IMG/VR virus record: IMGVR_UViG_3300017989_000169 | Location: 1-47,267 of that record | DNA length: 47,267 nt | Direction: 5' to 3' (one strand) | From: a virus | Shown here: one piece after another, positions 11,120-47,267 of the stretch | Layout of the letters: the number at the start of each line of letters is the position of its first letter | How positions within the stretch are numbered: the first letter of the stretch is position 1 | Made by a program: the position numbers and the translations under genes | Notes under the pieces: generated by a model | Told to the model about the DNA's origin: nothing | What the model saw: the letters and a program-made list of their open reading frames with translations, nothing else | Database searches by the model: none

Positions 11120-11623
11120 GTGCCGTCCCCTCAGGATGAGGGGCTATTCGGTACGGATCAGCAGGGACAGCAGCAGGTTGCCCAGGACACGGCGCGCGGA
11201 ATGCGGCAGCAGGGCTCGATGCTGGGCGGCATCCTGACGGAGAGCCTGGGGCGCAGCATCGGCGAGGCGTTCCGCACCCACGACTGGTCAGGCGTCGCCG
11301 ACGAGCTGGCTAACACGATGAGCCAGCTGTTCAGCCAGGTGTTCAGCGGGATGGGGCCGTTCGGCGGCTTCGTCGGCGGGATATTCGGCGGCTTGTTCGG
11401 TGGCGTGCTCGGCGGCCTGTTCGGTGGCGGCGGTAGCAGCAGCCGGCGCGGCGAGTCCATGAGCAACCCGATGTACACCTATGATGTGCGGGCCGAGTCG
11501 CTGCTGACCGAGCTGCTCAATGCCACCAAGCTCCAGCGCCTACAGATGGCCGCGGCGGGCGGCGCTGACGCCGGTGACCTGCAAAGCGACATCTACCTGA
11601 TGGGCGGTGACGATCTTGGCTAG
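11120..11623 (+). CDS. Gly-rich hydrophobic tail protein, in frame with the tape measure
   Basis: This 167-residue frame begins with GTG 11120, only one codon after the tape measure TGA and in the same frame. It contains a glycine/phenylalanine-rich hydrophobic run (FGGFVGGIFGGLFGGVLGG) at residues 75-100, the type of segment often found at the C-terminus of tape measure proteins. The ribosome site is poor (TTGAGG two bases before GTG). It may be a separate gene, a tape measure extension made by TGA readthrough, or a tape measure split by a nonsense mutation. The next gene overlaps its last 17 bases. Confidence 0.6.
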   Translation: MPSPQDEGLFGTDQQGQQQVAQDTARGMRQQGSMLGGILTESLGRSIGEAFRTHDWSGVADELANTMSQLFSQVFSGMGPFGGFVGGIFGGLFGGVLGGLFGGGGSSSRRGESMSNPMYTYDVRAESLLTELLNATKLQRLQMAAAGGADAGDLQSDIYLMGGDDLG

Positions 11624-38858: not shown

Positions 38859-39254
38859 ATGAAGCGCTGGTTTACCACGGTCAACTTCCCTGGCGGCGAG
38901 TTTGCGATGAAAGCCGAGACGCCAACTGAGGCTGAGGATGTGCTGGTGGCAGACTTCAACCGCTTCCGTCCAGCAGGGGATGAGCCGGTGACGATCGAGT
39001 TGCTGCGCCAGTTGTGTCCCTCGCTTGTAACGCGGATCGCCCCGCCGGACCTGACGGACTGGCTAAATGGCAATCCGCCTCCCTTCCCTGATGGTGAACT
39101 CTCGCGGGCTCCGGGTGGTTGGCTTGCCTATGCCGCGCACACGGTGCATGGCCGCAGCTGCTCGGAGGCCCTATGCTTTGTACCTGTCTGTGGCGCTGCG
39201 GGTATCACCGTGATCAGGGAGAAGGAGGAGGACATCAGCGATGCCGAGGACTAG
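38859..39254 (+). CDS. Hypothetical early protein
   Basis: The 131-residue protein starts two bases after the ATPase stop, with GGGAGGGGCAG upstream. It has an antiparallel N-terminal region (MKRWFTTVNFPGGEFAMKAE), then FNRFRPAGDEPVTIELLRQL and several cysteines near the end (GRSCSEALCFVPVCG). No known domain is seen. It overlaps the next gene by 14 bases. Confidence 0.55.
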   Translation: MKRWFTTVNFPGGEFAMKAETPTEAEDVLVADFNRFRPAGDEPVTIELLRQLCPSLVTRIAPPDLTDWLNGNPPPFPDGELSRAPGGWLAYAAHTVHGRSCSEALCFVPVCGAAGITVIREKEEDISDAED

Positions 39255-43301: not shown

Positions 43302-45208
43302 AGCTCTCATACAGCCAGGAGCGGGGGAGATTCGAGCTGCGGTTCAAGAGCGCCGATGAGTACCGCGCGTCCGGCTCCTTGCCGCAGCGCCTGAGCTTCC
43401 GGTACGACCCGGACCGCTACGTCTGGCATACGCGCGATGTCCGGCAGGCCGGCCGGCTGGCCAAGTATGCTGACGCTACCGCCAGAGAACGCATCGACCG
43501 CGAGTTCGGCCGCGGCAGCTATGACATCCCGACCACGCTGACCTACCAGGGCGGCGTATTCTACTGCCGCTGCGCGCGGCCCAAGCACTACGTACCGCGC
43601 CGGCTGGCCTTCAGACGCGACGAGGAGCGCGATCTCTGGTACACCCGCGATACGTTCCTGGCGCTGAAGCTGCTCAGGTATGCTGACGATGCGGCCAAGA
43701 CCGTGCTGCTACCGTACCGCAAGGAGCTGCGCCGCCGGCTGAAGCTCAGCCGCGCCCTGGACTCCGACGTACAGATCCCGGTGCCACGCGGCCTCAAGTA
43801 CTTCCCGTACCAGCGCGCCGGCATTGCATACGCGGCCGAACTCGACTCCGTACTGATCGGCGACGAGATGGGCCTGGGCAAGACCATGCAGGCTATCGGG
43901 CTGATCAACCTGCTGGCCGGCCAGATCAACGAGGCGCTGATCGTCTGCCCCGCGAGCCTGAAGCTCAACTGGCAGCGCGAGCTGCGCAAGTGGCTGACTG
44001 ATCTCAGCTACGAGGTCCAGCTGGCCGATAGCCGGTACTGGCCGGAGCTGGGCCTGTTCCAGCGCCGAATCGTGATCATCAACTACGACATCCTCCACAA
44101 GTTCATCGACGAGCTGACGGCCCGCGAGTGGGACCTGCTGATCGCCGACGAGTGCCACAAGATCAAGAACCCAGGCGCGCGGCGCACCACGGCCTTTCGT
44201 CGGATCAAGGGCCGCCGGCGTATCCTGATGACCGGCACGCCGATCGTCAACCGGCCGTCCGAGCTGGCCTCGCTGCTGGCATACCTGGACCCGCCTACGT
44301 ACGGCGGCCGCATCGGGCAGTGGACGTTCATGCAGCGATACTGCCACGGCTACGCCAAGGGCGCATACAACCTGAAGGAGCTACAGCAGCGGCTGCGCGG
44401 CACGGTGATGATCCGGCGGCTGAAGGTGGATGTGCTGACGGATCTGCCGCCGAAGCTGCGGCAGGTAATCGAGCTGCCCGCGGACAGAGACATTCTCAGC
44501 CGAGAGCGCGCGATCCTGTCCCAACTCGGGCTCGTGTTCGAAGGCGAGGCCACGGATGATGCGGCGGCTTTCACGGCGCAGGTGTTGGCGCTGCGCGACG
44601 CCAAGATGGGCGCGGCCGCGGAGATTAGTAAGCTACGGCACGAGACCGCGCTGGCCAAGGTGCCGCAGGTAGTCGACCATCTACGCGAGTGCCTGCACGC
44701 CAGTGAGAAGGTGGTGTGCTTCGCGCATCATCTGGACGTCATCGATCAGATTGCCGCCGAATTCCCCCCGTCCAGTGTGGCAATGCTGACCGGCCAGCAC
44801 TCGCTGAAGGAGCGCCAGGAGGCGGTGGACAAGTTCCAATCAGAGGCCGGCGTGCGGCTATTCATCGGCGGGATACTGGCGGCCGGCGTCGGACTGACGC
44901 TAACCGCGGCCAGCCACGTAGTGTTCGCCGAGATCGACTGGGTACCCGGCAACATGAGCCAGGCGGAGGACCGCTGCCATCGCATCGGGCAGCAGTCGAG
45001 CGTGCTGGTGCAGCATCTGGTACTGGCCGGCAGCCTGGATAGCTACATCAGCAAGATGCTGATTCAGAAGCAGGATGTAATCGACCGGTCGCTTGACCGG
45101 CGGGAAAGTAAACCACAGGAGGATCGAACCAATGGACGCAGAGAAGGCAGTGACGCAGACCTTCCCAGGGCTGACGCTCGAGCGGGACGTGCCGGTGTAC
45201 GCCAATGA
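43298..45208 (+). CDS. SNF2-family DEAD-like helicase with duplicated N-terminal module
   Basis: The 636-residue protein has all SNF2 motifs: IGDEMGLGKTMQAIG (I), LIVCPASLKLNWQREL (Ia), LLIADECHKIKNPGARR (II, DECH), RILMTGTPIVNRPSEL (III), and AEDRCHRIGQQSSV (VI). The N-terminal 130 residues hold two copies of a 60-residue module (LPQRLSFRYDPDRYVWHTRD and VPRRLAFRRDEERDLWYTRD), perhaps an annealing or DNA-binding unit as in SMARCAL1. GTG 43298 overlaps the previous stop. The last 25 or so residues overlap the next gene and look shadow-like. Confidence 0.88.
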   Translation: MKLSYSQERGRFELRFKSADEYRASGSLPQRLSFRYDPDRYVWHTRDVRQAGRLAKYADATARERIDREFGRGSYDIPTTLTYQGGVFYCRCARPKHYVPRRLAFRRDEERDLWYTRDTFLALKLLRYADDAAKTVLLPYRKELRRRLKLSRALDSDVQIPVPRGLKYFPYQRAGIAYAAELDSVLIGDEMGLGKTMQAIGLINLLAGQINEALIVCPASLKLNWQRELRKWLTDLSYEVQLADSRYWPELGLFQRRIVIINYDILHKFIDELTAREWDLLIADECHKIKNPGARRTTAFRRIKGRRRILMTGTPIVNRPSELASLLAYLDPPTYGGRIGQWTFMQRYCHGYAKGAYNLKELQQRLRGTVMIRRLKVDVLTDLPPKLRQVIELPADRDILSRERAILSQLGLVFEGEATDDAAAFTAQVLALRDAKMGAAAEISKLRHETALAKVPQVVDHLRECLHASEKVVCFAHHLDVIDQIAAEFPPSSVAMLTGQHSLKERQEAVDKFQSEAGVRLFIGGILAAGVGLTLTAASHVVFAEIDWVPGNMSQAEDRCHRIGQQSSVLVQHLVLAGSLDSYISKMLIQKQDVIDRSLDRRESKPQEDRTNGRREGSDADLPRADARAGRAGVRQ

Positions 45209-46475
45209 GCAGGGCGAGACCACACCGGCGCGCAGCATGGGCGTGGGCCGCGTGAAGGAGCTGATCGCGGAGTGCACGGACTGGGATGTGCTGAAGCGGC
45301 TGATCGCCGATGACAAGCGCAAGACCGTGAGGAAGGCGGCGCAGGTGCGGCTCGATGAGCTATCGGCCGATGGCCAGCCGGACATGAGCCCGCCGCCCGA
45401 TGACAGCGTACCCCCGCCGGCCGGTACCCCGCCTGAGGCTGTTGGCGATCCCGATGCCGAGCAGCTGTACGCGATGAAGGCCGGCGGCTCCGGGCAGATT
45501 GCCTTCAGTCTGGCTAATCGCGTCTACCACGGCGAGATCACGCGGCAGACCTGCCCGGCCGTCCGAAGCGAAGGGACGGTCATCGACCAGCACACGGAGC
45601 TGGACATCGAGCTGCGCGCCTATCCCGGTGACCTGAGCCTTAGCCAGTACTTCAACTGCGGCTTCATCACAGCGGCGGTCGATGAGGAGCCGGCCGGCGA
45701 GGACGGGGAGGATGGCGAGGTCTTTCAGGAGGACATCGAGGGCGGCGAGCAGCAGCTACGTGAAGGCCGGCGCGGCGTGACCCTGCCCAATCCGGGCGGC
45801 GCCCAGCGCATCGGCATTACCGATCGCGATCACAACGTACAGCTGACCAGCCTCGTCAACGGCGGCCAGCAGCACACGCTGACGCCGCGGTCGATCACCT
45901 GGCTGGGCATCGAACCGGACAAGGACAAAAGCAACACCCACCCGACCGCCACGCTGCACATGCGGCTGTGCAAGCTGCCCCACGAGATGGCGGGCGCCTG
46001 CCGCTGGCTGATGGGGAAGTGGATGATCCGGTTCGTGCTCAAGGAGGAGGAGCAGCGCAACGACGAGCAGAACGCGGAGAGCCACGAGGAGAATCCCGCG
46101 CAGGCCACGGTGCACGACGCACTTCAGGAGGCCGCCAGCGAGCCACAGGAGGGCGAGGCTGAACCGGAGCCCCAGCGCCAGCCCATCGATACCCAGGCGG
46201 GCCACGACGCGGAGTTTGCGCGGTTCTGGGAGCTGATCCAGCCGGCCTACGACATGCTGATCGAGTTCGCCGGCGCGGTGGTCGGCAAGGATGAGAGCAA
46301 GGAATGGTTCGATGAAGCGATCAACGATGAAGGCTACTTGGACCTGCCCGCTATCGCTGACAGCACAACGCTGGTCGAGATGATGGCGGTAGCTGAGGCC
46401 GAGGATGAGCCGGTGGGCAAGTTCAACTGCCGCGCCCTGGCCTGGATCATCGAGAAGCACTACAACGACAACTAG
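45132..46475 (+). CDS. Large acidic early protein of unknown function
   Basis: The 447-residue protein is acidic, with folded-looking parts (residues 115-180, QIAFSLANRVYHGEITRQTC; 240-300, TPRSITWLGIEP and LHMRLCKLPHEMAGACRWLM). They are separated by Glu/Asp/Gly-rich linkers (EEPAGEDGEDGEVFQEDIEG). ATG 45132 has CAGGAGG upstream and starts inside the helicase gene. It lies between helicase and replication initiator, so a replication-related role is likely. No motif identifies it. Confidence 0.58.
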   Translation: MDAEKAVTQTFPGLTLERDVPVYANEQGETTPARSMGVGRVKELIAECTDWDVLKRLIADDKRKTVRKAAQVRLDELSADGQPDMSPPPDDSVPPPAGTPPEAVGDPDAEQLYAMKAGGSGQIAFSLANRVYHGEITRQTCPAVRSEGTVIDQHTELDIELRAYPGDLSLSQYFNCGFITAAVDEEPAGEDGEDGEVFQEDIEGGEQQLREGRRGVTLPNPGGAQRIGITDRDHNVQLTSLVNGGQQHTLTPRSITWLGIEPDKDKSNTHPTATLHMRLCKLPHEMAGACRWLMGKWMIRFVLKEEEQRNDEQNAESHEENPAQATVHDALQEAASEPQEGEAEPEPQRQPIDTQAGHDAEFARFWELIQPAYDMLIEFAGAVVGKDESKEWFDEAINDEGYLDLPAIADSTTLVEMMAVAEAEDEPVGKFNCRALAWIIEKHYNDN

Positions 46476-46514
46476 CTCGCACGGAATCATCAAGGAGATG
46501 GAGTAACAATCGCG

Positions 46515-47267
46515 ATGCCATTAGGGTATTCTCGCAACATATTCCCTGAGCTATTCAGCACTGATAAGTGGCACGATCTCACAGCCGGCCAGGGCTATCT
46601 CTGGCTGTATTTGATCGCCGGTGAGCACCCTACCAGATGCGGCATTGTTCCGATCCGCTACCATGCGATGATCGCATTCAGCAAGGGAACGCTGACCAGC
46701 CGTGCCGAAGTAGATGAAGCGCTGGAGCTGTTCGCCAGTCCGGAGTACGGCTGGGTCGAGACGGACGGCAAGTTCGTGTGGGTCTGCGACTTCATCGAGG
46801 ATCAGACGAACAGCACCAACTGGGCAATAGGCGCCCTGGACGAAGCCTACGAACTGCGCGACAAGACCCATCTGGCCAGCCGGTGTATTGAGAAGTACCA
46901 GCAGCGTTTCGACTGGAAGCCAGGCCCAGAGCGGCCTAAAGGACGGCGTTCGGACGGCAAGCGAACGGCATCCGGACGCCGTACCAAGGGCGTTAAGACG
47001 CCATCCGAACGGCGTCGGACGCCATCCGAACGCAAGAGTCAGAGCCAGAGTCAGTCCCAGGATGAAGCATCCCCCGGAGGGGATGCAGCGGCCAAGGCCG
47101 CTGAGCGCCCGTACACGGATGCTGATCTCGATCTGGCCGGCCGGCTGATAGAGATCATCGAGCGGGTAGCCGCCAGCGGCGAGTATCAGATCATCGCCAG
47201 CCAGGCGCGCAACGTGCAGGCAATCGCCAGCGGGATACACCGAAGCGGCCTGAGCCACGAGCAGATA
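46515..47267 (+). CDS. Replication initiator / replisome organiser (3' partial)
   Basis: The frame starts at ATG 46515 and is open to the window end (251 codons). The N-terminal 110 residues have a phage-initiator feel (MPLGYSRNIFPELFSTDKWH, YLWLYLIAGEHPTRCGIVPI, EVDEALELFASPEYGWVE), like DnaD/O-type winged-helix proteins. A basic low-complexity linker (KGRRSDGKRTASGRRTKG, then SQSQSQSQ) leads to a helical C-terminal part. The linker DNA carries iteron-like repeats, as in lambda O. It follows the recombination/helicase genes. The C-terminal interaction domain lies outside the window. Confidence 0.68.
   Translation, partial: MPLGYSRNIFPELFSTDKWHDLTAGQGYLWLYLIAGEHPTRCGIVPIRYHAMIAFSKGTLTSRAEVDEALELFASPEYGWVETDGKFVWVCDFIEDQTNSTNWAIGALDEAYELRDKTHLASRCIEKYQQRFDWKPGPERPKGRRSDGKRTASGRRTKGVKTPSERRRTPSERKSQSQSQSQDEASPGGDAAAKAAERPYTDADLDLAGRLIEIIERVAASGEYQIIASQARNVQAIASGIHRSGLSHEQI
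46941..47032 (+). repeat. Iteron-like repeats inside the initiator gene (putative origin)
   Basis: GACGCCATCCGAACG occurs perfectly at 46997-47011 and 47018-47032 (21 bp apart). A reverse-oriented near copy, CGTTCGGACGGC, is at 46947-46958, and an imperfect dyad CGGCATCCGGACGCCG is at 46966-46981. The cluster lies within the coding region of the linker of the replication protein, matching the location of lambdoid origins. Confidence 0.6.

Follow-up and report, generated by a model that had tools for sequence, protein, structure and literature searches.

The initiator gene at the right end of the window

The DNA analyzed, referred to here as the window, is a viral record of 47,267 bp of the linear class, with a GC content of about 65%. 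The genome is probably incomplete in this record, as its first gene is one for head morphogenesis (positions 1 to 970; phrog_2468, 1.4e-21) and its last, an initiator gene, is cut off at the end. The initiator gene occupies positions 46515 to 47267 on the plus strand, comprises 251 codons, and runs past the right end of the window, beyond which any downstream helicase loader or helicase genes would lie. The gene upstream of it (45132 to 46475, 447 codons) encodes an acidic-looking product without a clear match in phrogs, Pfam, or NCBIfam. No relative of this product was found in viral contigs by peptide patterns, and none was recovered when the gene was used as bait.

The identification of the gene product as a replisome-organizer-like initiator, which probably starts the copying of the phage DNA, is supported by remote homology. 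Direct matches were weak: phrog_8064 (replication initiation protein) was matched with an E value of 0.0047 and phrog_1701 (DnaD-like helicase loader) with an E value of 0.15, and phrog_8064 also matched in 3 of 14 control genomes. Pfam gave no match above the cut-off for the protein and NCBIfam none for the gene. In an hhalign comparison of the N-terminal domain with a profile of 13 replisome-organizer domains, residues 22 to 75 were aligned with an E value of 2.2e-6 and a probability of 89%. This domain is thus remotely related to those of replisome organizers. A single homolog of the initiator protein (locus L039) was found in 396 genomes of one phylum, that of a Nocardia; tblastn from the window initiator gave 29% identity over 119 amino acids (E value of 3e-8 within the L039 locus), with no motif used in the search. 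The L039 protein has no Pfam match and matches phrog_6251 (replisome organizer DnaA-like, 1.4e-19) and phrog_1701 (5.6e-19).

Further searches returned little. Two other phyla, sampled with 398 and 392 genomes, yielded no homologs, although such empty answers show little, and no close relatives were found in viral contigs, phages (tblastn), plasmids, or genome contigs; the scans of viral and genome contigs used exact peptide patterns and so apply to close relatives only. Among the 11 records related through the helicase (L003 to L013), no convincing initiator homolog was obtained by tblastn (best E value of 0.052, with the N-terminal part as the query), and none matched phrog_8064. Profile comparison gave no support for a relation to actinophage initiators and no relation to a three-member O-like set, a comparison to which lambda O itself did not belong.

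The N-terminal domain (46515 to 46919, plus strand; about residues 10 to 135) was assigned by AlphaFold2 and structure search and is presumed to bind DNA. Modeled with 32 relatives, it was predicted to be a winged helix with a mean pLDDT of 79.9, while the whole protein modeled from its single sequence reached a pLDDT of 45. The best structural matches were winged-helix domains of CRP-family and ORC/Cdc6 proteins, with middling and generic Z scores of 6.0 to 6.9. Foldseek returned nothing at an E value of ≤0.001 for the domain model, and PDB sequence searches with the initiator protein gave nothing meaningful. No DnaD or RepA entry was among the structure-search matches listed, which does not exclude such entries.

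An array of 11-bp units in the linker

A tandem array of eight units lies after this domain at positions 46945 to 47031 on the plus strand (87 bp, equal to 29 codons). The units start at 46945, 46956, 46967, 46978, 46989, 47000, 47011, and 47021; the unit at 47011 is 10 bp long and the others are 11 bp. In order, they are GGCGTTCGGAC, GGCAAGCGAAC, GGCATCCGGAC, GCCGTACCAAG, GGCGTTAAGAC, GCCATCCGAAC, GGCGTCGGAC (the 10-bp unit), and GCCATCCGAAC. Compared to their own consensus, the units have a mean identity of 76%, with the 11-bp phase kept. The array is equivalent to four degenerate 22-bp iterons, which on the basis of the TRF period and the unit split were placed at 46945 to 46966, 46967 to 46988 (the second half strongly diverged), 46989 to 47010, and 47011 to 47031 (21 bp), all on the plus strand. 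TRF itself called a single array at 46943 to 47032 with a period of 22 and 4.1 copies, and its score of 96 was the highest of the 36 rows for the window.

An earlier sequence-only reading of this DNA had reported perfect 15-bp repeats 21 bp apart, with inverted near copies, in the basic linker of the initiator. Each of these statements was borne out. The plus-strand repeat GACGCCATCCGAACG is present at 46997 to 47011 and at 47018 to 47032, with no further copy on either strand of the window; two inverted pairs, 46942 to 46958 with 47000 to 47016 and 46946 to 46958 with 47021 to 47033, are 88% and 92% complementary, respectively; and the repeats fall within an Arg/Lys-rich stretch of the open reading frame at 46515 to 47267. 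The description was correct as far as it went and proved incomplete, as the 15-bp repeats are the best-kept part of the eight-unit array and the inverted near copies occur because the 11-bp unit is a partial palindrome. The spacing had also been described as two helical turns; the unit is in fact 11 bp, or one turn, and the 21 bp is the sum of 11 and 10.

Two smaller features follow the array. A simple repeat of AGAGTC with periods of 6 and 12 bp, encoding Ser-Gln repeats, lies directly after it (47035 to 47060, plus strand; TRF scores of 33 and 38). Purine-rich repeats of 6 to 18 bp come after the iterons in many relatives as well, but the repeat in the window may be only coding. A perfect hairpin, GCATCCCC-CGGA-GGGGATGC, with 8-bp arms and a 4-nt loop, is located inside the initiator gene at 47067 to 47086, 35 bp past the array. 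It has a z score of −3.4 and no T-run, and it is one of 12 hairpins listed in the window, for which ten shuffles gave 3 to 14. Likewise, an inverted repeat, CAGGTAC/GTACCTG, is found downstream of the array in the viral contig L016 described below.

No AT-rich tract was found beside the array: the lowest 40-mer within 200 bases was 50% GC (percentile 0.036). By the same measure, such a tract is present in lambda (percentile 0.0004) and in the contigs L022 (0.0001) and L016 (0.003). The nearest AT-rich stretch is at 46504 to 46567, at the gene start and about 400 bp upstream of the array, where 40-mers have a GC fraction of 0.40; it is the only candidate unwinding region seen nearby. The cumulative GC skew, proposed beforehand as a check, climbs through most of the window and does not turn at the array, and it was uninformative either way.

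The four 22-bp units show partial dyads at 10 to 12 of 13 to 14 positions, which is not significant given the tandem repeat. Dyad symmetry as high was obtained in 604 of 5,000 simulations of a random tandem 11-mer with the same divergence, and it was dropped as independent evidence. The single-strand fold over the array is unusually stable on both strands (z scores of −4.7 and −5.7), as is typical of repeats with inverted copies. A matrix built from the array itself gave seven motif sites of at least 10 bits in the array and seven elsewhere in the window.

Tests against chance and coding

The periodicity of the array was compared to that of shuffled and recoded sequences. Both lag-22 identity (46/77) and lag-11 identity (42/77) had their window maximum at the array, and these values were reached by 0 of 200 and 1 of 200 dinucleotide shuffles, respectively. 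When any lag from 7 to 30 was allowed, 46 was reached by 1 of 200 shuffles and 42 by 32 of 200. Elsewhere in the window, the 12-bp tandem array GTTCGGCGGCTT (11353 to 11440; 5.8 copies, TRF score of 70) has the highest lag identity for lags 7 to 30, 50/77 at lags 12 and 24. As its period is a multiple of three, this array is explicable at the codon level.

For the initiator linker, the protein was held fixed and the codons were redrawn from window usage in 20,000 draws. Synonymous recoding reached the observed lag-22 identity in 4 draws, the lag-11 identity in 53, and the sum of the two in 2. When the second 15-bp copy was left out (first 69 nt), the sum was reached in 6 of 20,000. The 15-bp repeat as such is less remarkable, with an equally long repeat in 461 of 20,000 recodings. 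Since recoding rarely restores the periodicity, the periodic array is a feature of the DNA. Furthermore, the frames of successive unit starts are 1, 0, 2, 1, 0, 2, 1, and 2, and the peptides encoded differ. Codon-level duplication alone had been named in advance as an explanation that would count against an origin. It clashes with the 11-bp period and the mixed frames: as 11 is not divisible by three and all three frames are represented among the units, codon duplication is not the whole explanation.

Relatives recovered with the motif

Two patterns derived from the array unit matched eight distinct viral contigs (L015 to L022), and in two of these (L022 and L016) the array lies within an initiator gene. 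In L022, three clusters at 11 bp are located in the initiator linker and a very AT-rich 40-mer follows them. The L022 gene has no PHROG or Pfam match of its own. It resembles an Actinobacillus phage primosomal protein (E value of 9e-7) and the DNA replication protein O of Citrobacter phage Chris1 (E value of 4e-4), and downstream of it are a DnaC-like loader (phrog_50, 2.7e-13) and then a DnaB-like helicase (phrog_19, 6.8e-99). The L016 initiator matches phrog_3926 (replication initiation, 1.8e-12) and carries an 11-bp array in its linker.

The six other contigs (L015, L017, L018, L019, L020, and L021) were judged by eye not to be initiators, L018 and L019 being alike at the site. In L017 to L021, CGTCCGGACG palindromes occur in tandem at 11 bp, in open reading frames or gaps. 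A CGTTCGRACG-type pattern was tried as a universal mark and rejected, as its four loci in genome contigs were by eye not in an initiator. By blastn against phages, the array gave two matches at an E value of 1 and a piece of the L022 array gave nine at E values of 1 to 4, all of which were taken as chance.

Relatives recovered without the motif

Initiators were also collected blind to the motif. The first set consisted of 12 of the 21 phage records related to L039, plus L039 itself. Over these 13 loci, arrays with a period that is not a multiple of three (non-3n arrays; TRF score of at least 40) numbered 10 in 11.4 kb inside initiators (8 of the 13 genes), compared to 4 in 54.7 kb outside; the remaining 5 genes had no such array at this score. 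Arrays of 11 bp were present in Oenococcus phage Krappator27 (L042), Psychrobacillus phage PVJ1 (L043), Geobacillus virus E2 (L044), and Clostridioides phage CD1801 (L052), a 23-bp array was present in the initiator of Geobacillus phage PK3.5 (L049), and arrays of 7 or 31 bp were found in L043, L050, and L051. Also counted were 20-bp arrays in L039, where a 10/20-bp array of its own follows the domain with a TRF score of 60, the highest of that locus. In a repeat-density scan, the top window of the locus fell in the initiator at 7 of the 13 loci (2.3 expected), compared to 3 of 11 loci with other initiator types (1.9 expected), lambda being among the three.

Two larger surveys were based on alignments of such domains. 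Survey 1 took the best 80 of 525 relatives, which gave 29 genes after linkers 80% alike were merged. It yielded 24 non-3n arrays in 25.3 kb inside the genes (20 of the 29) and 4 in 125.8 kb outside. Periods of 11 bp (18 arrays) and 22 bp (4 arrays) were seen inside; neither was seen outside. Most of these arrays share an ATAC-N-GTAT-like unit and are therefore not independent, the unit of L130 being different. Many survey 1 genes also have a purine-rich 6- to 30-bp repeat downstream of the iterons. Survey 2 was ranked from a member without an array and took the best 80 of 521, giving 52 new clusters. Within the genes, 20 non-3n arrays were counted over 45.4 kb, spread across 17 genes, compared to 17 over the 224 kb outside them. 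Arrays of 11 bp were found in 13 of the 52 genes, after the domain in 12 and within it in L174; two 11-bp arrays and one 22-bp array lay outside the genes. TTTGAAA-type arrays with a 20- or 11-bp period were observed inside the winged-helix coding region in L039 (1644 to 1681) and L174 (nt 188 to 221 of the gene).

When the two surveys were pooled (81 nonredundant genes), 11- or 22-bp arrays numbered 35 in 70.7 kb inside and 3 in 350 kb outside, an odds ratio of 58, for which the pooled Fisher value is too small owing to shared ancestry. At fixed gene positions and the 1% level, the lag-11+22 excess over synonymous recoding was found in 21 of the 29 survey 1 genes and in 5 of the 52 survey 2 genes. 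No non-3n array was present in 9 of the 29 survey 1 genes, and no array of 10, 11, or 21 to 23 bp in 39 of the 52 survey 2 genes. An 11- or 22-bp array is thus common in replisome-organizer genes, recurring in many relatives, and it is not universal.

A control set was assembled from ten initiators outside the family of the window (8 of 164 relatives of L016 and 2 of 2 relatives of L022), plus the window, L016, and L022. At a score of 40, it contained 10 non-3n arrays in 10.9 kb inside initiators and 6 in 113.4 kb outside. Without the window, L016, and L022, the counts were 6 and 5, and most of the six were (GACCC)n pentamers rather than iterons. These are perfect repeats of 3.6 to 7.4 copies in the Gordonia phage initiators L028, L029, L031, L036, and L037, at about nt 390 to 465 and after the N-terminal domain. 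The opposite strand, (GGGTC)n, is G-rich and might form a quadruplex.

Interpretation of the array

We propose that the array is probably the initiator-binding core of the phage replication origin, located inside the gene of the very initiator that would recognize it. The winged-helix N-terminal domain would bind one 11-bp unit, or a dimer would bind a 22-bp pair. Because the units are one helical turn apart, the bound proteins would share one face of the DNA and could assemble there into a nucleoprotein complex. This complex would then open nearby DNA and call in the helicase loader and helicase, and the linker peptide encoded by the array would be a tolerated by-product. Binding, melting, helicase recruitment, and the start of replication at the array are what we infer from the features described above and by analogy with origins reported inside lambda O, SPP1 gene 38, pSK41 rep, TP901-1, and Tuc2009 (PMC7466680, PMC6316719, PMC5703833, PMC8965321).

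A broader suggestion, held tentatively and with somewhat less than even confidence, is a design rule by which the linkers of replisome organizers hold sites at a spacing of one turn (11 bp), irrespective of the motif, which would let initiators stack along a single face of the DNA. Our confidence in both the origin and the rule was lowered because the survey 1 motif is mostly shared, because few survey 2 genes (5 of 52) exceeded recoding, and because one survey 2 array lies within the domain.

The likeliest of the other explanations is neutral tandem duplication by slippage in a weakly constrained linker, the array persisting by tolerance with no binding function. We regard this as unlikely. 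Slippage would not lead one to expect an 11-bp period in different phages whose motifs differ, the scarcity of such arrays outside the genes in the pooled surveys, or the recurrence of this period in the Tuc2009 gene annotated as containing the origin, and the units have diverged to a mean identity of 76% and yet retain their phase. What speaks for slippage is that plain simple-sequence arrays also occur in initiator linkers, namely, the (GACCC)n repeats of the five Gordonia phages and purine-rich arrays of 6, 12, and 18 bp; in addition, the single perfect 15-bp copy points to an event in the recent past, and the total of 87 bp is divisible by three.

It is quite unlikely, in our estimation, that the array is a cis-acting site of the initiator or another regulator with a nonreplicative role such as autoregulation, incompatibility-type titration, or segregation. 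Phased arrays also serve repressors and partition proteins, and a role of this kind would suit both the missing AT-rich tract next to the array and the similar CGTCCGGACG repeats that lie, by eye, outside initiators in L017 to L021. The position in the middle of the initiator gene, however, matches those reported for lambda ori, SPP1 oriL (PMC6316719), the pSK41 Rep boxes (PMC5703833), and the Tuc2009 and TP901-1 origins (PMC8965321).

Codon-level duplication, in which repeated basic peptides were required in the protein and the DNA repeat is a mere consequence, is very improbable and as a whole explanation not tenable: the linker is basic, both 15-bp copies are read in one frame as TPSER, and the 15-bp repeat by itself recurs among the recodings, but the unit is read in all three frames as different peptides and its periodicity was reached in only 2 of 20,000 codon redraws with the protein fixed.

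Iterons inside an initiator gene are a known kind of arrangement, of which the window is a further case. If the array is indeed an origin core, the replication origin of an uncultured phage is placed within 90 bp, and an 11-bp period, out of codon phase and after a winged-helix domain, becomes a searchable signature for replisome-organizer phages. The 11-bp spacing across relatives is a by-product of more interest than the array of the window; in the open-licence papers searched, no mention was found of such a rule for the replisome organizers of phages. If the design rule is true, origins could be located from sequence alone in many uncharacterized phages, including GC-rich ones like that of the window, in which the site is not marked by an AT-rich unwinding tract. 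The question is also raised of how a GC-rich origin opens without an adjoining AT-rich tract.

Comparison with known origins

Origin-like iterons in the initiator linker, as put forward in the sequence-only reading, are still the best description of the locus, with the nearest parallel being replisome-organizer origins of the Tuc2009 type rather than lambda. The lambda arrangement that had been invoked holds in that each initiator gene carries four iterons midway along, which in the window lie after the DNA-binding domain. According to the lambda record (L038), the iterons of gene O are at 39034, 39054, 39078, and 39101, with starts 20, 24, and 23 bp apart, compared to 22, 22, and 22 bp in the window; they were missed by TRF as a tandem array and found by the repeat-density scan. 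Hairpins over the iterons are reported for lambdoid phages in PMC7466680, and the window array has its stable single-strand fold. The lambda iterons are described as imperfect inverted repeats of 18 to 19 bp with an adjoining AT-rich tract, whereas the window has half-units at 11 bp and no adjoining tract. A match to lambda ori in the strict sense is opposed by this missing tract and by the nonsignificant dyads.

In the RepA_N plasmid pSK41, an N-terminal winged helix-turn-helix is reported to bind four Rep boxes in the middle of the gene, where the linker peptide is dispensable (PMC5703833). For the window protein, RepA_N (PF06970) was not listed in the Pfam scan at an E value of ≤1, a result with which a remote RepA_N relation through the winged-helix fold is compatible. 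For SPP1, oriL is reported to lie within gp38 (gene 38), a replisome-organizer gene, and an AT-rich unwinding element is described in the SPP1 origins (PMC6316719). For 80alpha, the proposed site of the origin is within ORF20, the replisome-organizer gene (PMC5499656). TRF found no non-3n array in 80alpha ORF20 or in TP901-1 rep.

The closest likeness is to TP901-1 ORF13 and Tuc2009 ORF16 (Rep2009), which are reported to bind regions of direct repeats that lie within their own genes and act as ori; this binding is in print in PMC8965321, and the window is known from its sequence alone. As in the window, the direct repeats lie in a replisome-organizer gene after the N-terminal domain. The Tuc2009 rep gene, whose record carries the note "contains origin of replication," has four 11-bp units at nt 340 to 383, GGCAACCAAGT GTCAACCATTC CGCAACCAAAT GACAACCAAAT, of which TRF reported the last two. 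The motifs differ, being CAACCA in Tuc2009 and GSCRTYCGRAC in the window. The likeness extends to what comes after the 11-bp units, as Tuc2009 has a purine-rich AGGATAGG repeat at the place where the window has its AGAGTC repeats.
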